From positions 1 through 32,370 of IMG/VR virus record IMGVR_UViG_3300042691_006893: a stretch of DNA of 32,370 bases. One strand, given 5' to 3'. The notes beneath the pieces were generated by a model, which did not search any database, had not been told where the DNA came from, and saw only the letters and a list, made by a program, of their open reading frames with translations. The first letter of the stretch is position 1; each line of letters opens with the position of its first letter. A program made the position numbers and the translations under genes. Shown here piece after piece: positions 5,385-31,024 of this stretch. This stretch comes from a virus.

Positions 5385-5392
5385 TATCTTTG
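5385..5392 (+). promoter_or_regulatory. Bacteroidota-type promoter (-7 TATCTTTG)
   Basis: Exact TAnnTTTG match just after the NinG stop. It lacks the 17-bp element seen at the two early promoters, so regulation may differ. Transcription would begin near 5398 and first pass through the structured segment at 5398-5530 before the gene at 5566. Confidence 0.75.
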
Positions 5393-5397
5393 TAGCA

Positions 5398-5530
5398 CGT
5401 TCTTTAGAATTTAAAAAATGTTTTTGGTCGAGAAAAACATCGTTAAACATAGTGGCAGCGGAAGCAGAGCCACAAATACGACGCCCTATTATTTGCACTC
5501 GACCTGCATTTAATAGGGTTTTGTCGTTTT
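5398..5530 (+). ncRNA. candidate structured RNA with loop-sequestering pseudoknot
   Basis: Gene-free stretch behind a perfect promoter. Elements in order: GGTCGAG (5426-5432); hairpin GTGGC (5452-5456)/GCCAC (5469-5473) topped by GC-GGAA-GC, a GNRA-type tetraloop; long hairpin ACGAC (5478-5482) + CCCTATTA (5484-5491) pairing with TAATAGGG (5511-5518) + GTCGT (5523-5527); inside it a TGCA/TGCA stem (5494-5497 with 5505-5508) closes a 7-base loop CTCGACC (5498-5504) that is the exact complement of GGTCGAG. A short T-run (5527-5530) follows, so this may be a free RNA of about 130 bases or a leader/riboswitch of the downstream genes. No known RNA family recognised. Confidence 0.6.
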
Positions 5531-5565: not shown

Positions 5566-5784
5566 ATGGAAAAAACAAGAATTGTATTTTGTTCATCAAA
5601 AGACGACGAACAAATTGAAATGGAAGCGTATATTAATACGCAAAATGAGTTATATATAAAAATTGAAAATGAATTAGACCAATTTAGTTATATAACATTA
5701 AATAAATTGACTGCCATTAAATTCGTAAAACACCTTAAAAAAGAAATATCTTATATGATAGAAAGTGAGGAAGAAAATGGCTGA
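5566..5784 (+). CDS. hypothetical protein (72 aa)
   Basis: Small acidic protein (FCSSKDDEQIEMEAYINTQNELYIKIE), beta-rich first half and helical second half (NKLTAIKFVKHLKKEISYMIESEEENG). First gene after the structured RNA. Its 3' end overlaps the next gene by 8 bases from ATG 5777. Function unknown; the position suggests part of the replication unit or a target of control by the upstream RNA. Confidence 0.55.
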   Translation: MEKTRIVFCSSKDDEQIEMEAYINTQNELYIKIENELDQFSYITLNKLTAIKFVKHLKKEISYMIESEEENG

Positions 5785-6466
5785 AAATAAAAAGAAATAT
5801 ATTATTTACCAAGATTGGATAAATACATTTGATAAATTAGAAGATATTGAAGCAGGAAAATTAATTAAACATTTATTTAAATATATAAATGGAATTGAAG
5901 ATGAAGCGCCAGACCGATTAACTAATTTATTATTTCAGCATATTAAACAAACTATTGATAGAGACTGCGAAAAATATAAAGAAACTTGTCAGAAGAATAA
6001 AGAAAATATTAAAATACGATGGAATAAAAATAATACGACCGAATACGAGCGTATAAATTCGAATACGAAAAATACCGATAATGATAATGATAGTGATAAT
6101 GATAATGATAGTGATATTATTAAAATAAATAAAAATAAAATAGATTTATCTTTTGTTGATTTTGAATATTTAGAAGTATTTGAATTATGGTTGGAATATA
6201 AAAAAGAAAAAAAGCAAAGTTACAAGAGCCAAAAAAGTTTAGAAATTTGCTACAAGAATTTAATTAAAATAGCAAATAACGATCCAGAAGTAGCAAGGCA
6301 AATAATCAGTAATTCAATAGCAAATAATTATTCTGGCTTATTTCCGATAAAACAAAATAAAGAAGACCAACCGAACAAGTTTCATAATTTAATAAATTTA
6401 TACAACCAAACACAAGAAGAATATGCAAACAAACCACGCACTGGAAAAAAGTTCGGTGAACTTTAG
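5777..6466 (+). CDS. replication-region protein, DUF6291-like N-terminus
   Basis: Start set at ATG 5777 (MAENKKKYIIYQDWINTFDKL); a GTG 12 bases earlier is also in frame, but the ATG is more likely. N-terminal 80 residues (YQDWINTFDKLEDIEAGKLI then GLFKHI-like YING and CEKYKETCQKNKENIKIRW) match the DUF6291-type domain found in Bacteroidota phage replication regions. A DNDNDS repeat linker (two 18-base units, 6077-6112) separates it from a helical C-terminal part (FELWLEYKKEKKQSYKSQKSLE), as seen in proteins that load or organise replication factors. It likely takes part in replication initiation; no catalytic motif is seen. Confidence 0.6.
   Translation: MAENKKKYIIYQDWINTFDKLEDIEAGKLIKHLFKYINGIEDEAPDRLTNLLFQHIKQTIDRDCEKYKETCQKNKENIKIRWNKNNTTEYERINSNTKNTDNDNDSDNDNDSDIIKINKNKIDLSFVDFEYLEVFELWLEYKKEKKQSYKSQKSLEICYKNLIKIANNDPEVARQIISNSIANNYSGLFPIKQNKEDQPNKFHNLINLYNQTQEEYANKPRTGKKFGEL
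6077..6112 (+). repeat. tandem repeat, two perfect 18-bp units inside a coding region
   Basis: Unit GATAATGATAATGATAGT occurs twice without mismatch and encodes DNDNDS twice. It lies in the linker between the two parts of the replication-region protein. Such a tract can change length by slippage in steps of six residues. Confidence 0.9.
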
Positions 6467-8385: not shown

Positions 8386-8970
8386 ATGAATATCAAGAAA
8401 ATTAAAATAACCGAAATTAAGTTAAACCCAAATAACCCAAGATTAATAAAAGGAGATAATTTTAATAAATTAGTTAATTCAATAAAAGAATTTCCTAAAA
8501 TGTTAGAAATAAGACCTATTGTAGTAAATGACGATATGATTGTTCTTGGTGGAAATATGCGTTTAAAAGCGTGTAAGGAAGCAGGGTTAAAAGAAGTTCC
8601 AGTAATTAAAGCAAGCGAATTAAGCGAAGAAGAACAAAGGCGTTTTATAATTGCAGACAATGTAGGTTATGGAGAGTGGGATTGGGAAATGCTTGCAAAC
8701 GAGTGGGAAAACGAACAATTGACCGAATGGGGTTTAGACGTATGGCAACCGCCTGCAGAAGTAGATTATTCTATATTAGACGATGAAAATGCAGACCTTA
8801 ATAGCCAATTAGAAGATATGGCAAGCGGAGTTAAAAAAGCAATACAGATCGAATTTGAAGCAGAACATTATGAACAAGCATATGAACTTGTTAAATTCTG
8901 GCGTGAACGTGAAGCATATGTTGGTGGTATGATAATGGAATATTTAAAAGCCGAAAAAGAAAAGATATGA
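8386..8970 (+). CDS. ParB/sulfiredoxin-like N-terminal domain protein
   Basis: The N-terminal 90 residues follow the ParB-like pattern: KITEIKLNPNNPR, then VNSIKEF, ...IVVNDDMIVLGGNMRLKACKEAGLKEVPV with GGNMR at 55-59 standing for the GxxR box, and EEEQRRFIIADN. Such stand-alone phage ParB-like proteins are common beside DNA methyltransferases and terminases; the fold binds nucleotides and can have nuclease activity. The C-terminal half is acidic and helical (AEHYEQAYELVKFWRERE). It overlaps the FkbM gene by four bases (ATGA), so the genes are co-translated. Confidence 0.85.
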   Translation: MNIKKIKITEIKLNPNNPRLIKGDNFNKLVNSIKEFPKMLEIRPIVVNDDMIVLGGNMRLKACKEAGLKEVPVIKASELSEEEQRRFIIADNVGYGEWDWEMLANEWENEQLTEWGLDVWQPPAEVDYSILDDENADLNSQLEDMASGVKKAIQIEFEAEHYEQAYELVKFWREREAYVGGMIMEYLKAEKEKI

Positions 8971-9659
8971 AGATTAAAACGATAAAAGGAATAAAATTCT
9001 ATTACCGTGAAAACACAAGCGATTTAAAAACATTTGAAGAAGTTATTGATCGAGACGTTTATAGAAAAAAAGGAATGACAATACAAAATGGTGAAACGTG
9101 GATTGATTGCGGTGGGAATGTAGGTGCTTTTACTTTATTGGCTTGTTCTTTGGGTGCAAATGTAATAGTATATGAGCCAGACCCTAATAACTGCAGAATG
9201 ATTGAAAAAAATTTACAATTAAATAATTTTAAAGCAGAAATAATTTGCGCAGGATTAGTTCATAATGAAGTAAAAAAAGCAAATTTATACGTAGGAAATA
9301 ATGGTAACGTCTGGAGAAATTCAATGTATAAAAATTGGAACGGAAAAGGTTTGAAAGTTGATTGCGTAAATTTTGACGAAGTAACAAAAGATGGATATTG
9401 TGTTAAAATGGATATAGAGGGCGCAGAAATGCCAATATTAGAAAACACAAAAAGAAAGTTTAAAAAGTTAGTGTTTGAATGGAGTTTTGATATAGACCCA
9501 AGTTTACCAAGATTTTGGAATATTATAGATAAATTAAATAAAAATTATAAATTAGCTTCAATAGGAAATACTGCTAAATATCAAAGTAGAGATTATGACG
9601 TATGGCAAAAATCTTGGTTTCCTGCCTGCACAAATGTATTCTGTTATGAAAAGAATTGA
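8967..9659 (+). CDS. FkbM-family SAM-dependent methyltransferase
   Basis: Rossmann fold motif TWIDCGGNVGAFT (44-56), VYEPDP (68-73) as the acidic SAM-binding loop, and MDIEGAE (148-154), the diagnostic motif of the FkbM family. The family mainly O-methylates sugars and polyketides. In a phage it could modify a sugar on DNA, virion or cell surface. Overlaps the previous gene by ATGA and the oxygenase gene by 14 bases, so it is part of one unit placed directly before packaging genes. Residues C-terminal to the motif (QKSWFPACTNVFCYEKN) complete the domain, so the gene looks intact. Confidence 0.85.
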   Translation: MKIKTIKGIKFYYRENTSDLKTFEEVIDRDVYRKKGMTIQNGETWIDCGGNVGAFTLLACSLGANVIVYEPDPNNCRMIEKNLQLNNFKAEIICAGLVHNEVKKANLYVGNNGNVWRNSMYKNWNGKGLKVDCVNFDEVTKDGYCVKMDIEGAEMPILENTKRKFKKLVFEWSFDIDPSLPRFWNIIDKLNKNYKLASIGNTAKYQSRDYDVWQKSWFPACTNVFCYEKN

Positions 9660-19516: not shown

Positions 19517-20428
19517 ATGGCAAGAAAGAAAAAAGAAATTAATAATTTAGATAGCAAAGGAGTTTTAATACTTGCTTTAGGACATCCATATTACGGGCGT
19601 TTAGCGGCACAACTTGCAATGTCTATTAAATCAAATACGCCAGAAGTAAGTATTTCTGTAGTTAAAACTGCTAATTCATTAAACCACTGCACTGCGGAAT
19701 ATTTAAAATACTTTGATAATATAATTGAATGTCCGAAAGAATATTACACAAATAATAAAGGTTTTGACGACTTTATTAAATGTAAAATACATATTTACGA
19801 CCTTACGCCATACGATAAAACAATTTATTTAGACGCAGACATAATTTGGCTTCATAATAGAAATATAAACGATCTATTTGAGGAATTAAGCGAAGCAGAA
19901 TTTACAATACAGAATAGAGGTGCATTTGAGTTAGGCAAAGGCAAATTAGAAGACAAAACAAGCTGGTGGTGTAATGTAAACGATATACTTCCGGCTTATA
20001 ATGTTAAAAATGGAATTTATTATTCACTTTCAAGTGAGTTCATTTATATAAAAAGGGCAACCAATGTAAAAAAATATTTCGATAAATGCAAGTGGGTTTA
20101 TGATAATATTAAAATAAAACATACTAAATTTGCAGGCGGTATTCCAGATGAACTTATTTTTTCAATAGCAATGATTTTATGTGATTATTACCCGCATAAA
20201 ACATATTACGTTCCGATATACTGGGAACAAGCCGAGAAACGCAGATTAATTGGTGCAGAATTAAATAATTTATTTTATGGTTTTAGTTTAGGCGGCAAAA
20301 TAGTAGGGGATAGGGAAAAAAAGATTTATAATGATATAGTGCAGAAATACTGCAATCAAAACGGCTTAAAGCATTATTTTCAAGCCAAAGATAAAGTTCA
20401 ATGGCTACCAGATAGACAAGTAATATAA
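19517..20428 (+). CDS. glycosyltransferase, GT8-like
   Basis: N-terminal GVLILALGHPYYGRLAAQLAMSIK and the later TAEYLKYFD fit nucleotide-sugar transferases with GT-A fold. YLDADIIWL contains the DxD metal/nucleotide-sugar motif at 106-108. Further aromatic motifs follow (SWWCNVNDILPAYN, TKFAGGIPDELIF). Closest by pattern to LgtC-like GT8 enzymes, although sugar and acceptor are unknown. The gene sits between tail and portal genes with its own probable promoter, so it looks like an accessory insert. It could glycosylate virion protein, phage DNA or host surface. Confidence 0.75.
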   Translation: MARKKKEINNLDSKGVLILALGHPYYGRLAAQLAMSIKSNTPEVSISVVKTANSLNHCTAEYLKYFDNIIECPKEYYTNNKGFDDFIKCKIHIYDLTPYDKTIYLDADIIWLHNRNINDLFEELSEAEFTIQNRGAFELGKGKLEDKTSWWCNVNDILPAYNVKNGIYYSLSSEFIYIKRATNVKKYFDKCKWVYDNIKIKHTKFAGGIPDELIFSIAMILCDYYPHKTYYVPIYWEQAEKRRLIGAELNNLFYGFSLGGKIVGDREKKIYNDIVQKYCNQNGLKHYFQAKDKVQWLPDRQVI

Positions 20429-20435
20429 TGCAAAA

Positions 20436-22232
20436 ATGAAAATCGAAATTACACCAGAGTTAGTATTTAGTTATATTAAAAATCATAAACATAGGCACGC
20501 TGCTTATTATGAAACTGTAGATATTGCAGACCATTTAAAATTTCATATTGATGGTTATAGATTTGACGAACATAAAGCATATACAGTAAGAGAAAACCCG
20601 TATTTTAATAAGCTAATCGATACAATGCGACCGTCTGAAAGCGATACCATTAAAATGTATCGTAGAAGCATTTATATCGGAAAAACGAAGTCACCTTGTA
20701 ATAAGGTAATTAATTCGTTAAAGAAAATAGTTAAGTCTCCAGAATGGGATATTTCATTTGATAAGTCAGAAGTTCCGCCAGTAATAATACCAGAAGAAAC
20801 GTTAGAATATTATACTGAATATAAATATCCAATGTTTAATTCAGTTGAAAACTGGGCGATAAATTATTTATTAAAAGAAAATTTATCTGATCCAAACGGA
20901 ATAGTTTGTATTATGCCAATTGATTATATGGTTGAGCAAACAGAATACGTTAAACCAGTAGCTTTATTTATCCCGTCTTATGACGTTTACGAATACAAAG
21001 CCGAAAAACTTTTAATATTTAAGTCAAATAAAATAGCTGAATATAAAAGTAATGATGGAAAAGTTACATATAAAGAAAATGTAATTGTAACTATAAATGA
21101 AAACGAAATTTGGGAAAGTAAAAAATTAAATACTAAAGGCGATTGGAGTTTAGAATTAGTTTATACTCACAATATAGGTAAACTTCCTGCGTTCAGATCT
21201 GGCGGTCAATATAAAAATATAATAGACGGCAATCCAATATTCGTTTCAATGATAGATGGAATGCTAAATGGATTGGATATTGCAGCAAGAGAATGTAGCG
21301 ATTTAGACGCCGAAGTAGTTCAGCATATTTATTCTACAATGTGGTATTATTCCGGGCAGGAATGTGCCACTTGTAACGGAACTGGTAAAGTATTAATCCA
21401 AGGTAAACAATCAGTATGCGGAACGTGTTCTGGCGAGGGCGTGTTGAAAAAATCGCCTTATAAAGATTTAGTTGTAAAAAGTCCAAATATTGGAGAACAA
21501 CAAGTACCAACACCACCAGCAGGATATATAATTAAACCAACGGATATAGTTAAAATACAAGACGAAAGAATACAAGGACATATATTTGACGCATTGAGTT
21601 CAATTAATATGGAGTTTTTAACGAATGCGCCTGCTAATCAAAGTGGAGTGGCAAAGGCATACGATAGAGACGAATTGAATAATTTTGTTTATGGCGTAGC
21701 TTACCACTTTGTTGAAATATTAAATAGAGTATTTTATTTTATAAATGAATACAGATATAAGGTTGTTGTTCCAGACGAAAAAACAAGAATGGAAATGCTT
21801 CCAGAAATATACGTTCCAGAAACATTTGATTTATTAACTGCTAATATGCTAATTGATGAAATAAGCAAAGCAAGAAATTCAAAGCAAAGCATTTTAGTTA
21901 TTAATGAATTAGAAAAAGAATACGCAGAAAAAGCGTTTCCAGAAGACGATTATATTACTGATAAAATGGAAGTAATAAATTCAATCGATCCATTTATTGG
22001 AATGTCAATATCTGAAAAAAATGATTTGTTAGTTAGTGGCGGAATACAGAAAATAGATTTTATTGTTTCGGTTTATATTTACGATTTTATTGAGCAAGCC
22101 AGAAATGCAAATGAAGACTTTTACGAGTGGGAATACGCAAAGCAAAGAGAATTAATTTACAAAATGGCTAATGATAAAATGAACGCTACCACAAGCGAAA
22201 TAAAAACCATAATGAATAATAGCGGTGAGTAA
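20436..22232 (+). CDS. portal protein with DnaJ-like zinc-finger insertion
   Basis: 598 residues; gene position before a MuF-like protein, length and the helical C-terminal part (LTANMLIDEISKARNSKQSILVINELEKEYAE) fit portal proteins of tailed phages, which form the dodecameric ring through which DNA enters and leaves. A distinctive insert is C310-ATC-NGTG and C328-GTC-SGEG: two CxxCxGxG motifs, like one zinc-binding pair of DnaJ. A segment RIQGHIFDALSSINMEFLTNAPANQSGVAKAYDR resembles the portal stem/clip region. I recall such Cys motifs in other Bacteroidota phage portals. The stop overlaps the MuF-like start by one base (TAATG). Confidence 0.75.
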   Translation: MKIEITPELVFSYIKNHKHRHAAYYETVDIADHLKFHIDGYRFDEHKAYTVRENPYFNKLIDTMRPSESDTIKMYRRSIYIGKTKSPCNKVINSLKKIVKSPEWDISFDKSEVPPVIIPEETLEYYTEYKYPMFNSVENWAINYLLKENLSDPNGIVCIMPIDYMVEQTEYVKPVALFIPSYDVYEYKAEKLLIFKSNKIAEYKSNDGKVTYKENVIVTINENEIWESKKLNTKGDWSLELVYTHNIGKLPAFRSGGQYKNIIDGNPIFVSMIDGMLNGLDIAARECSDLDAEVVQHIYSTMWYYSGQECATCNGTGKVLIQGKQSVCGTCSGEGVLKKSPYKDLVVKSPNIGEQQVPTPPAGYIIKPTDIVKIQDERIQGHIFDALSSINMEFLTNAPANQSGVAKAYDRDELNNFVYGVAYHFVEILNRVFYFINEYRYKVVVPDEKTRMEMLPEIYVPETFDLLTANMLIDEISKARNSKQSILVINELEKEYAEKAFPEDDYITDKMEVINSIDPFIGMSISEKNDLLVSGGIQKIDFIVSVYIYDFIEQARNANEDFYEWEYAKQRELIYKMANDKMNATTSEIKTIMNNSGE

Positions 22233-23125
22233 TGGCAAAGACGCCAGACGAAATATTAAAAGAATTATTTGAAACTATTGATAACTCAATAGATAAAATA
22301 AACGCAAAAGCTACTTCGCAGCAAAAAACAATTTTAAAAGAAGTTGAATTATTAATTAAAGATTTATCTGTAGACGAAAGTGGAAATATTAAATCTACAA
22401 TAGGTAATTTAAAACTAATTAATAAGATAAATGCGAAATTAGAAAAAGTAATTTTAACGCCAGAGTATAAAAAATCAGTTGCGGATTTTGTTAAAAGTTT
22501 TGGCGAAGTTGAAGATTTACAAAACAGATATTACAGAGACGTATTTAATGAATTTGTTGTACCAAAGACAAGCGAAGAATTAAAAGATATTGCCGTACAA
22601 ACGACGATTAAAGATTTAACGGAAGCAGGGTTAAGCAGTAACGTATCTGGTGCTATAAGCGATCTAATAGCGTCAAACATAAAAGGCAAACAAAGCTATA
22701 ATGATTTAAGAAAACAATTAACCGATTTTATCGTAGGTACAAAAGATAAAAACGGAAGATTATTAAGTTATGTAAATCAAATTACTTCTGATAGTTTAAA
22801 TACTTATTCAGCGGAATATGATAAAATAATTACAGACGTTATTCAACCAAGTTGGTATAAATACGTTGGTTCGATTATTTTAGATAGTAGACCATTTTGT
22901 AAAGCCGTAGTAGAAAAAAAATGGGTTCATAAAAGCGAACTGGGTGCTTTAAGCAGGGGTGAAGTAGACGGAAAACAAGTAAGTACGCAAGGGTTTAAAC
23001 CGAATACAGATAAAGAAAATATTATTATTAATCGTGGCGGTTGGAATTGCAGGCATAAATTTGTTGCAGTAAGCGAAGAAGTAGTTCCAGATAAATTAAA
23101 AGAAAAATTTGCAGATAAAGAATAA
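22232..23125 (+). CDS. MuF-like head morphogenesis protein
   Basis: 297 residues with the typical C-terminal pattern DSRPFC (218-223), a loop with KSELGALSRGEVDGKQV, and GGWNCRHKF (269-277): the Cys/Trp/Cys/His pattern of the minor head protein gpF family. These are internal head proteins encoded after the portal. The helical N-terminal half is variable in the family. No fused toxin or enzyme domain is seen. One-base overlap with portal gene indicates translational coupling. Confidence 0.85.
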   Translation: MAKTPDEILKELFETIDNSIDKINAKATSQQKTILKEVELLIKDLSVDESGNIKSTIGNLKLINKINAKLEKVILTPEYKKSVADFVKSFGEVEDLQNRYYRDVFNEFVVPKTSEELKDIAVQTTIKDLTEAGLSSNVSGAISDLIASNIKGKQSYNDLRKQLTDFIVGTKDKNGRLLSYVNQITSDSLNTYSAEYDKIITDVIQPSWYKYVGSIILDSRPFCKAVVEKKWVHKSELGALSRGEVDGKQVSTQGFKPNTDKENIIINRGGWNCRHKFVAVSEEVVPDKLKEKFADKE

Positions 23126-23142
23126 ATAATAAACTTTGTATT

Positions 23143-23436
23143 ATGGCAAAAAAATATAAAACACCAATTTGGCAAAGAGCAGCAGGACAAGACAAAGAAA
23201 AAGGCGGTTTAAATAGAAAAGGCGTTGAAGCATATAATAAAGCCAATCCGGGTGCTAATTTAAAAATGGCAGTTACAAAAGCACCAAGTAAATTAAAGAA
23301 AGGTGGCGAAGCAGATAAACGCAGAAATTCGTTTTGTGCCAGAATGGAGGGAATGAAAGATAAATTGACTTCGCCTAAAACCGCAAAAGACCCAGAAAGC
23401 AGAATAAATAAAGCATTACGTAAATGGAATTGCTAA
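23143..23436 (+). CDS. DUF6321-like basic protein (97 aa)
   Basis: Lysine-rich, with TPIWQRAAGQDKEKGGLNRKGVEAYNKANPGAN... and the C-terminal motif RRNSFCARMEGMKDKLTSPKTAKDP, then SRINKALRKWNC. I recognise this ending from DUF6321-type phage proteins found near head genes. Two Cys (SFCARM and WNC) may matter. Its strong positive charge suggests binding to DNA in the head or at the portal; not proven. Confidence 0.75.
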   Translation: MAKKYKTPIWQRAAGQDKEKGGLNRKGVEAYNKANPGANLKMAVTKAPSKLKKGGEADKRRNSFCARMEGMKDKLTSPKTAKDPESRINKALRKWNC

Positions 23437-23454
23437 CCCTTAAAACTAAATAAA

Positions 23455-23613
23455 ATGCCGTTAAAATCAGGAAAATCAGCAAAAACAATCAGTAGAAACA
23501 TTTCTTATGAAATGAAGAAAAACCCAGAAATGAAACAAAAACAAGCCGTTGCTATTGCGCTATCAAAAGCAGGAAAAAGCAAACCAAAAATGGCTAAAGC
23601 AAAGAAAAAATGA
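23455..23613 (+). CDS. DUF6496-like small Lys-rich protein (52 aa)
   Basis: Short gene missed by length filters. Starts at ATG 23455 ([20 protein letters not shown]), contains [19 protein letters not shown] and ends in a Lys-rich tail; stop at 23611-23613 overlaps the following ATG (ATGA). The pattern [34 protein letters not shown] is a widespread small phage protein motif. Likely nucleic-acid binding because of the charge. Function otherwise unknown. Confidence 0.75.
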
Positions 23614-23951
23614 ATAACGCTTTAATCAAATTAGCGTACAAACCAATTAACAGAAGTCAAAAGCGAGAAGCATTAAAGGAAAAGAAAAAAATTCTGGAAA
23701 TGCTTCTTACTATTGAACTTAATTTTACAGATCAATTATTTCAAGATAGTTACGATTATTTAGAATTGTATAATTTCTATTTAGACTTATATTGTTTGAC
23801 TGCACAAAAAATAGTTTTAGAGCAGAAGCCAGTATTTTTTAAACCGAACTTTTACTATTTTGAAACACAATACAAACCGAGTGAAAATATTAATAAAATA
23901 TCCAACACGAAGCAGACCGCAGAAGTTTTTGGAAACGCTGAAACAAATTAA
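23610..23951 (+). CDS. hypothetical protein (113 aa)
   Basis: Helical, soluble product ([43 protein letters not shown]). Overlaps the previous small gene by ATGA and the following glycosyltransferase gene by about 70 bases. The last 25 residues overlapping the next gene look unstructured, so the C-terminus could be coded only because of the overlap. No family recognised. Confidence 0.5.
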
Positions 23952-24549
23952 TTCACTTTCAGCAGATTTATCAAACATACATTTATTAGTTAGTTATGAC
24001 GCAGACGATAAAACAATGTCTGACGAAGTAATTGCTAAAGCGAAAACATATTTTCATAATGGAGAATTTATAAAAGGACTTTCTGCAAATAAAATACACG
24101 CTTGTAATAGAGATATAACTACAACAAAATTTAAGTGGGATATTTTAATACTTATGTCTGACGATATGGTTTGCCAGTGCAGAAATTGGGACAATATATT
24201 AAGGGCAGAAATGAAACAATATTTTTCAGATAAAGACGGTGTATTGTGGCATAATGACGGCTATACTGGAACTAAATTAAATACAATGTGTATTTTAGGC
24301 AGGAAGTATTTTAATCGTTTTAATTACATTTATCACCCAGAATATCTTTCATTATGGTGCGATAATGAATTTATGGAAGTAGCTAATAAGTTAGGCAAAC
24401 AAAAGTATTTTGAGAAAGTTTTATTCAAACACGAACACCCTGCAAACAATAACGAAAAAAGAGATAATTTATTATTGCATAATGAAACGTTCTTTAGTCA
24501 AGATAAAAAAACATTTATAACGCGTAAAGAAAAGAATTTTGGACTATGA
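23881..24549 (+). CDS. glycosyltransferase-like protein (GT-A fold)
   Basis: Start set at GTG 23881, just before [19 protein letters not shown], the usual first strand of these enzymes; an in-frame TTG at 23860 is an alternative. The nucleotide-binding region has LLVSYDADDKTMSD (36-48) and LMSDDMV with the DDM (DxD-like) motif at 94-96. C-terminal PEYLSLWCDNEFMEVANKLGK and HEHPAN are like family-2 type enzymes. First of a three-gene sugar-modification unit (with 24546 and 25097), the start of the next gene overlapping by ATGA. Sugar and acceptor unknown. Confidence 0.7.
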   Translation: MKILIKYPTRSRPQKFLETLKQINSLSADLSNIHLLVSYDADDKTMSDEVIAKAKTYFHNGEFIKGLSANKIHACNRDITTTKFKWDILILMSDDMVCQCRNWDNILRAEMKQYFSDKDGVLWHNDGYTGTKLNTMCILGRKYFNRFNYIYHPEYLSLWCDNEFMEVANKLGKQKYFEKVLFKHEHPANNNEKRDNLLLHNETFFSQDKKTFITRKEKNFGL

Positions 24550-25100
24550 TTTTGTCAATACTAATACCAACGCTTACAGAAAGAGTATTTTATTTAGATA
24601 AACTTTTAAAGCAGTTAAATAAACAGATCGAATTTTGTAATGCAAAAGATAATGTAGAAATACTTATTAATTCAGACAATAGAGAAAAAACAACTGGCTT
24701 AAAAAGAAACGAATTACTTAAAATAGCAAAAGGCGAGTATGTTTGGTTTATAGATGACGATGACGAATTATATCCGGGTGCTATAAATGCGGTTCTGGAA
24801 GCAGCAAAGAAAAAACCAGATTGTATGGCAATAAATGGAACTATGACAACAAACGGAAGAAACGAAGAAAGATGGTTTATTGCAATTAATAATTCATATG
24901 AAAAAAGAAACGGGGTTTATTATCGTTACCCAAACCATATAACACCTATAAAACGCGAATTAGCGACTAAAATAAAATTTCCGAATAAGACGTTAGGCGA
25001 AGACTTCGATTATGCTACTGCTCTTAAAAAAGCCAAATTATTAAAAACAGAAGAAGTAATTAAACTACCAATATATCATTATCAATACAGAAGAAAATGA
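24546..25100 (+). CDS. family 2 glycosyltransferase
   Basis: MILSILIPTLTERVFYLDKLL is the typical first strand of GT2, ILINSDNREKTTGLKRNELLKIAKGEYVWFIDDDDEL has the DxD at 70-73. C-terminal part shows ERWFIAINN and TLGEDFDYATAL, with the ED motif used as catalytic base region in GT2. Length 184 is at the short end but contains the whole catalytic domain. Adjacent in frame-overlap with glycosyltransferase and FkbM genes, so the three products probably act in sequence on one glycan. Confidence 0.85.
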   Translation: MILSILIPTLTERVFYLDKLLKQLNKQIEFCNAKDNVEILINSDNREKTTGLKRNELLKIAKGEYVWFIDDDDELYPGAINAVLEAAKKKPDCMAINGTMTTNGRNEERWFIAINNSYEKRNGVYYRYPNHITPIKRELATKIKFPNKTLGEDFDYATALKKAKLLKTEEVIKLPIYHYQYRRK

Positions 25101-25705
25101 ACTATAGCCAGAATAACGAACAGAATATAATATTAAACTATTTTAAAAATTATAAAGGAACTTTATTGGATTTAGGTGCAAACGATGGAATAACATTTTC
25201 TAATTCATATGCAGCACTACGAAGTGGTTGGAAAGGTTTATTAGTAGAAGCCAGTCCAAATGTATTTATAGATTTAGAAAAGCTTTACCGCAATAATGAT
25301 AATGTTCAATTATTAAATGTAGCAGTAGGTATGTTTAACGAAAATATTACTTTTTATGAAAGCGGAACACTATTAAATAAAGGCGATATAAGTTTAGTTA
25401 GCACAATAGACGAAGCAGAATTAAAGCGTTGGGGAAAAACTAAATTTACGCCAAAAGAAGTTAAATGTTACGACTTTAAAAGTTTAATGGAGTTATCAGA
25501 ATATAAAACCTTTGACTTAATTAGTATTGATATAGAGGGAATGGACTATAAAGTTTTAACGCAAATGAATTTAACCGATCTACAATGCAAAATGCTTATA
25601 GTTGAATACAATGGTAAGAATGAAAAAGATTATGTAGAATACGCAGGTAAATTCGGTATGAAATTACATTCAAAGAATTTAGAAAATCTTATTTTCCTAA
25701 AATAA
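25097..25705 (+). CDS. FkbM-family methyltransferase (second copy)
   Basis: SAM-binding LLDLGANDGITFSNSYA (23-39), VEASP (50-54), SISID-type motif ISIDIEGMDYKVL (142-154) with DIEGMD as the FkbM signature. Different from the FkbM at 8967-9659 in all linking sequences, so it is not a recent duplicate. It would methylate the sugar product of the neighbouring glycosyltransferases. Overlaps the previous gene by ATGA. Its last 17 bases overlap, tail to tail, the minus-strand repressor-like gene. Confidence 0.85.
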   Translation: MNYSQNNEQNIILNYFKNYKGTLLDLGANDGITFSNSYAALRSGWKGLLVEASPNVFIDLEKLYRNNDNVQLLNVAVGMFNENITFYESGTLLNKGDISLVSTIDEAELKRWGKTKFTPKEVKCYDFKSLMELSEYKTFDLISIDIEGMDYKVLTQMNLTDLQCKMLIVEYNGKNEKDYVEYAGKFGMKLHSKNLENLIFLK

Positions 25706-30472: not shown

Positions 30473-31024
30473 ATGGCAGCAGATATTTATTATCCGGGTT
30501 GTAGCACCGCTATCCCAGACCCAAATTGTTCAGATTGTCCACCTACAGAAAATGGTGACGTCAGGGCATTTTTCCTTGTAAAGAAAACATTTACTTTTAC
30601 TGACATTACAGATACTTCCGAATGGCAGACTGGAATATTAGCAAAAGATATTTATGTATTTCCTTACACAAGAGGAACAGTAACAGTTGCAGAAAATGTA
30701 GTTAATGGTTTTGGCGATCAAGACGAAAAATTAGATAGCTATACTTTTACTGCGGCAGTTGAAGAACCGAATTACAAAGATAATTACGGCTTTTGGAATG
30801 CTATTAAAAATGCAAGGAACTTTAAATTCGGTTACAAAACTGAAAATTATGTTCATTTAGCAGACGTAGCAGCACAATTCATTCCGAAACAAGACGTAAA
30901 AGATGGTAAAAAATCGCAAGTAAACTGGATGATTTCCGTAAAGTTTACACAAGATAATTTAATTGAACCATTTGATGCGCCAGATGGAGTATTTGAGCAG
31001 TGTATTGAAGTAATAGGTGAATAA
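30473..31024 (+). CDS. putative major tail (tube) protein
   Basis: 183 residues with beta-rich sequence (RAFFLVKKTFTFTDITD; YVFPYTRGTVTVAENV; LDSYTFTAAVEE; NFKFGYKTENYVHL; VNWMISVKFTQDN). Followed by its own terminator, as expected for an abundant virion protein, and placed after neck genes. Cys-rich start (YYPGCSTAIPDPNCSDCPP). Tail tube assignment is from context and secondary-structure outline. The codon pattern appears similar to the capsid gene (TTC, CTT frequent). Confidence 0.6.
   Translation: MAADIYYPGCSTAIPDPNCSDCPPTENGDVRAFFLVKKTFTFTDITDTSEWQTGILAKDIYVFPYTRGTVTVAENVVNGFGDQDEKLDSYTFTAAVEEPNYKDNYGFWNAIKNARNFKFGYKTENYVHLADVAAQFIPKQDVKDGKKSQVNWMISVKFTQDNLIEPFDAPDGVFEQCIEVIGE

Follow-up and report, generated by a model that had tools for sequence, protein, structure and literature searches.

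A putative cis-acting leader RNA with kissing hairpin loops upstream of replication genes in Bacteroidota phages

Two hairpins whose 7-nt loops complement each other in full, and which together constitute an intramolecular kissing pair, were identified in an intergenic gap of the virus record IMGVR_UViG_3300042691_006893, the whole of which (positions 1 to 32,370) is referred to here as the window. The pair is located 3' of a Bacteroidota-type promoter and 5' of replication genes. The same layout precedes replication genes in phages of Flavobacterium, Olleya and Cellulophaga and in many IMG/VR contigs, and about 73 distinct elements have been collected. On comparative sequence evidence, the two hairpins and their kissing pairing are conserved as RNA. 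The stretch in the window is probably (estimated probability about 0.55) one copy of a widespread, uncatalogued leader RNA switch of Bacteroidota phages that would act in cis. These elements add a common, strongly covarying RNA family that is missing from Rfam, in a group of phages for which RNA-based control of genes has been little described.

Parts and fold of the element in the window

The promoter of the element contains an exact Bacteroidota-type -7 element, TATCTTTG (5385..5392, + strand, as are all features of the element and its downstream genes), and a TTG at -33 is absent. Hairpin 1, ATGTTTTT [GGTCGAG] AAAAACAT (5418..5440), has an 8-bp stem and carries the kissing loop GGTCGAG at 5426-5432. 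This hairpin is present in the centroid fold, and covariation of its pairs is seen across the family. Kissing cannot be represented in an MFE fold, and that of the window chooses another local pairing. The linker of the window folds into a GNRA-capped middle hairpin, GTGGC A GC[GGAA]GC AGA GCCAC (5452..5473), which is missing from most relatives, in which the linker is 10-25 nt long and only rarely longer. Hairpin 2 (5478..5527), also obtained by folding, consists of a lower stem (5478-5482/5523-5527), an upper stem (5483-5491/5511-5519) and an inner TGCA/TGCA stem (5494-5497/5505-5508) enclosing the 7-nt kissing loop CTCGACC (5498-5504). Covariation in the family extends to its outer stem, its inner stem and the kissing loop.

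Hairpin 2 runs into a weak terminal T-run, TTTT (5527..5530), and most relatives carry a strong T-run at the homologous place. Measured against an intrinsic terminator, in which a G+C-rich stem is followed directly by a T-run, the window copy has four T residues only and a UUU bulged inside the stem, and the stem and short T-run that the original prediction had proposed as a terminator form a weak one. The first gene 3' of the element encodes 72 amino acids (5566..5784), begins 38 nt after hairpin 2 and has no match in Pfam. The next gene encodes a DUF6291 replication-type protein (5777..6466; PF19808, E = 1.3e-20), with its start at 5777 picked by alignment and the ORF list starting at GTG 5765. 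Relatives of this protein are annotated as replication proteins, or their genes adjoin a primase gene. Elsewhere in the window (8967-9659 and 19517-25705), several ORFs resembling sugar or methyl transferases by eye are found among structural genes.

The original prediction, which was made from the sequence of the window alone, named the promoter, GGTCGAG, the GNRA-capped hairpin and the TGCA-closed CTCGACC loop, and all of these are present. The complementarity of GGTCGAG and CTCGACC was also correctly described, but GGTCGAG, instead of being an open strand, caps an 8-bp hairpin as its apical loop. The proposed pseudoknot therefore survives as a tertiary pairing, which compensatory changes in relatives support, but in the form of loop-loop kissing instead of strand-loop pairing.

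The region folds better than its shuffles, with a z of about -3.5 to -4.0, and when the 187-nt intergenic gap was dinucleotide-shuffled 3000 times, none of the shuffles reached its score for two hairpins with complementary loops. Both GGTCGAG and CTCGACC are single-copy within the 32-kb window. A bare loop-loop match of 6-9 nt with 3-bp stems is by itself only mildly unusual because it was found in 231 of 5000 shuffles. Chance is excluded by the full layout and the comparison with relatives, not by the bare loop match. Two further matches to a genome-wide descriptor in the window (12041 and 21581) lie inside ORFs and were taken as chance.

Relatives, covariation and distribution

BLASTN of the window intergenic region against phages returned nothing significant because the sequence of the element is not conserved. 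A loop pattern containing GGTCGAG, GTGGC and GCCAC gave only chance matches in viral contigs, apart from one identical contig. An 8.2-kb contig from another sample, IMGVR_UViG_3300008339_005173 (L122, L217, L467), shows no difference from the window across the 187-bp gap or in the genes for the replication protein and NinG.

Relatives of the replication protein led to phages 11b, tooticki, hattifnatt, hemulen, elemo, Harreka and Cellulophaga phi19:3 and to contig L123. In each, the gap before the replication genes contains a TAnnTTTG promoter followed by hairpin 1, a linker and hairpin 2, and the loops of the two hairpins are complementary. The layout is shared by 11b, tooticki, elemo, Harreka, phi19:3 and L123, and their kissing sequences are unrelated. 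The loop pairs of the relatives are CGGGCAGG/CCTGCCCG, GTGAGACG/CGTCTCAC, TGAGAGC/GCTCTCA, GTGGTGG/CCACCAC, CTCTCACAA/TTGTGAGAG and CAGTCACT/AGTGACTG. Six of the seven gaps tested, including that of the window, outscored all 100 shuffles, and phi19:3 was weaker (2/100). The replication gene of Riemerella phage RAP44 (L223) has no clear element. Near 30567 on the - strand of RAP44, a 15-nt inverted repeat, TGTTAAACCATCGTG/CACGATGGTTTAACA, follows a TATATTTG box and differs in layout from the kissing element.

From IMG/VR, 80 loci carrying DUF6291-type genes were retrieved, and the full element was detected in 27 of 77 segments upstream of replication genes, compared with 0 of 77 reverse complements and 6 of 1540 shuffles. 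In segments elsewhere, it was detected in 7/1043 and 3/1043 on the two strands. A second search, which used promoter and linker and was blind to loops and genes, yielded 81 elements above threshold from 120 contigs, and an ORF starts 9-31 nt downstream of nearly all of them. The downstream ORFs belong to the DUF6291, Lin1244_N, ParB_N, HNH and NUMOD4/HNH families or are small ORFs, and one element of the DUF6291 set (in L195) is found 5' of a DnaB-type gene. Since the family of the downstream ORF varies, the element marks the start of an operon, mostly of replication genes, and not one protein. The window, with its promoter, hairpins 1 and 2, complementary loops and ORF shortly downstream, fits the family described here, and the placement in many phages agrees with the earlier suggestion of a leader of replication genes.

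TAnnTTTG is located directly 5' of hairpin 1 in the relatives, where the acceptance rule or the search pattern itself included it, and a TTG at a spacing of 17-23 from this box is present in only 21 of 72 elements. Complete phages contain one or two elements per genome. Tandem kissing elements occur in L187 (1918-2021 and 2390-2490) with the loops GTGAGACAC and GTAGAG; one precedes a small ORF and the other the replication gene. The phage in L195 is unrelated to that of the window, and its element (about 704-850), 5' of the DnaB-type helicase gene, has the same kissing pair, GGTCGAG/CTCGACC.

In two phages closely related to that of the window, L464 (98% identity in the terminase) and L465 (93%), the element occupies the gap that separates ninG from the replication gene, which is its place in the window. 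Their kissing sequences are CCACGTCAA/TTGACGTGG and CGTCGTCAA/TTGACGGCG. One C-G pair has changed to G-C and one A-U pair to U-G, with all nine kissing pairs kept. A lack of compensatory changes in related phages had been named at the outset as a refuting result, and those found in these phages decide this check in favour of the pairing; across the family the kissing helix and the stems covary.

Alignment A5 shows pairing in 92% of the cells of the kissing helix and changes on both sides in 7 of its 9 pairs, figures that overstate kissing because the rows came from a descriptor demanding it; sliding the structure lowers pairing from 90% to 31-48%. Alignment A6 is the stronger test for the same reason, as its 75 rows (42 non-redundant), all from the sequence-similar group 1, were collected by a covariance model that does not include the kissing pairs. 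Among the non-redundant rows, each of the 21 column pairs with the strongest covariation lies within hairpin 1, one of the two stems of hairpin 2 or the kissing helix; in A6 this last helix contains 307 Watson-Crick and 2 G-U pairs in 318 cells. Over the whole structure, G-U pairs far exceed A-C pairs (82 vs 6, in an alignment whose fitting to the hairpin stems somewhat favours G-U there), which indicates that the + strand RNA folds. The linker AAAGGAAUUAUU and the internal loop UGAA/GGAU are conserved unpaired stretches.

No match to the window was found in Rfam 15 at the gathering threshold, and 20 relatives gave none except for one tRNA gene. Permissive E-values returned only chance-level matches for the elements of the window and L201. 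The layout was likewise not described in the published literature searched, in keeping with the earlier statement that no known RNA family has it. A DNA pattern applied to bacterial genomes gave 119 matches, none of which was a real element. The model R1, which finds the sequence-similar group only and misses the window, 11b and tooticki, gave one match in 696 Flavobacteriaceae and Flavobacterium genomes. This match is located on contig C164 of one assembly (L463) and precedes a gene that by eye resembles the replication gene of L123. The near absence from bacterial genomes indicates that the element belongs largely to phages that do not reside in chromosomes.

Outputs, proposed mechanism and alternative explanations

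A T-run of at least 5 follows hairpin 2 in 55 of 72 elements, and one of at least 4 in 65 of 72. In 8 of 73 elements, 6-8 nt of the hairpin-1 kissing sequence recur directly before the start codon, against a null rate of about 0.8% per element. The T-run is missing in 7 of the 8 copy-bearing elements vs 13 of the 65 copy-free ones (Fisher p = 3e-4). Further cases of the copy are L325, L469 and L475, as well as L197 by eye. When start regions were matched to elements, 10 elements, including L325 and L475 added by hand, matched their own start region compared with 0.24 expected, a number reached in 0 of 5000 permutations. In this subclass, the sequences make it possible that the hairpin-2 loop has two mutually exclusive partners, and the start-codon copy could compete with the hairpin-1 loop for it. 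The repZ leader provides a precedent in which a hairpin loop pairs directly upstream of the start, and such loop-start complementarity is found in a minority of relatives. No copy of GGTCGAG precedes the start of the 72-aa ORF in the window. The switch suggested by the original prediction therefore gains a second loop partner in a subset of relatives but not in the window copy.

Transcription would start directly downstream of the TAnnTTTG box. Hairpin 1 would form first, at the 5' end, followed by hairpin 2, and the apical loops would then kiss by about 7-10 Watson-Crick pairs, a step that is well supported by covariation. Through hairpin 2, the leader would control in cis the gene that opens a replication or early operon. 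In most members, hairpin 2 and the T-run would serve as an intrinsic-terminator-like attenuator, and in a minority the hairpin-2 loop would pair instead with the copy of the hairpin-1 loop at the start codon. The making or breaking of the kissing contact would be the variable step, setting readthrough or translation. No alternative or competing helix covaries in the 42 non-redundant rows of A6, which counts against a classical two-state attenuator, as this would show one. The output is least clear for the window because its T-run is weak and a start-codon copy is absent.

More tentatively, the elements may represent a class of ligand-free switch in which kissing of two leader hairpins of nearly free sequence times the phage replication genes, with terminator and start-codon pairing as interchangeable outputs, and which spreads between operons and phages as a module. 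The kissing sequence varies while its pairing is kept, so the family offers a natural test bed for a tertiary contact that alone steers termination or translation. Thanks to the start-codon copies, the idea of a switch can be tested directly with reporter fusions.

A gene for a free small RNA, about 95-140 nt long, that ends at hairpin 2 and has host or phage RNAs or proteins as its targets in trans, is an unlikely reading, although the element has its own promoter, a compact fold and, in most members, a T-run. The same-strand ORF 9-31 nt downstream of nearly all 81 elements from the unbiased search leaves little room for a second promoter, and the T-run is missing in some members. Because the loops pair with each other and vary in sequence, no common seed is left, and the two 7-mers of the window have no second site in it. 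Neither the free RNA of about 130 nt nor the antisense or protein-binding role that had been suggested found direct support, and the ORF placement in most relatives favours a cis-acting leader.

Phage HK022 contains two RNAs of about 70 nt, putL and putR, each with two stem-loops and located 3' of early promoters (PMC9378689). By analogy, the nascent RNA of the element might bind RNA polymerase and allow readthrough of operon terminators, perhaps including its own hairpin 2. The position at operon starts and the number per phage, one or two, are compatible with this, and the conserved linker and the UGAA/GGAU internal loop could be contact sites. The resemblance to put is in placement and form only: the put RNAs, from a phage of another host phylum, are antiterminators that bind the beta' zinc-binding domain of RNA polymerase and suppress termination further along the transcript, and neither kissing or a pseudoknot nor a T-run of their own is mentioned for them (PMC9378689). 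Most members of the present family carry a T-run on the element itself, and a put-like function, which would leave the start-codon copies unexplained, is improbable. Equally improbable is a 5' structure with a purely passive role, protection of the mRNA or insulation of the operon, that does not switch; it would suit the 5'-end position and stable folding but neither the strict covariation of the loops nor their copies at start codons.

Control of copy number or immunity by kissing between RNAs, as in plasmid antisense systems or phage P4 CI, would fit the variable loop specificities, the position in a leader of replication genes and the two elements of different specificity in L187. It is nevertheless very improbable, since both partners lie within one molecule and the near absence from bacterial genomes indicates mostly non-prophage carriers, for which lysogenic immunity is unlikely. 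P4 CI-type immunity RNA acts in trans to terminate the replication operon and is carried by temperate phages and satellites residing in chromosomes, whereas the present element was nearly absent from bacterial genomes, in the pattern search and in the covariance-model search, the latter of which reached only the sequence-similar group. A structure of DNA, such as a replication origin folding as a single strand, would explain the location beside replication genes but was rejected on the G-U to A-C count, and the transcript-oriented promoter, T-run and start-codon copies and the elements preceding HNH, ParB or small ORFs make it the remotest of these readings.

Comparison with known leader RNAs

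Riboswitch expression platforms are leader switches of the terminator or start-site type, in which one folded domain can drive either output. The putative switch described here resembles them in having two outputs, termination or start-site pairing, but differs in that no ligand, conserved binding core or covarying antiterminator helix was seen. The leader of T4 gene 32 contains what may be the sole viral pseudoknot in translational autoregulation according to a review (PMC3014915). Like the element, this leader has a tertiary fold and precedes a phage replication gene whose start region is A/U-rich; however, the T4 pseudoknot is bound by the product of its own gene, whereas the element has a kissing contact between two hairpin loops, and its downstream genes vary widely. 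In plasmid ColIb-P9 (IncI-alpha), a pseudoknot is the translation switch of the replication initiator RepZ, as given by titles cited in PMC10724649. This system resembles the start-codon-copy subclass, with the difference that the repZ competitor is an antisense RNA in trans, whereas hairpin 1 of the element carries the start-region sequence in cis. HK022 put, T4 gene 32 and repZ may be regarded as the nearest cases that work alike, by analogy and not as families to which the element has been assigned.

The same kissing and start-codon sequence, CATCCAC, is found before three different genes in L143, L267 and L469. Judged from these sequences, the element looks like one transferred as a module.
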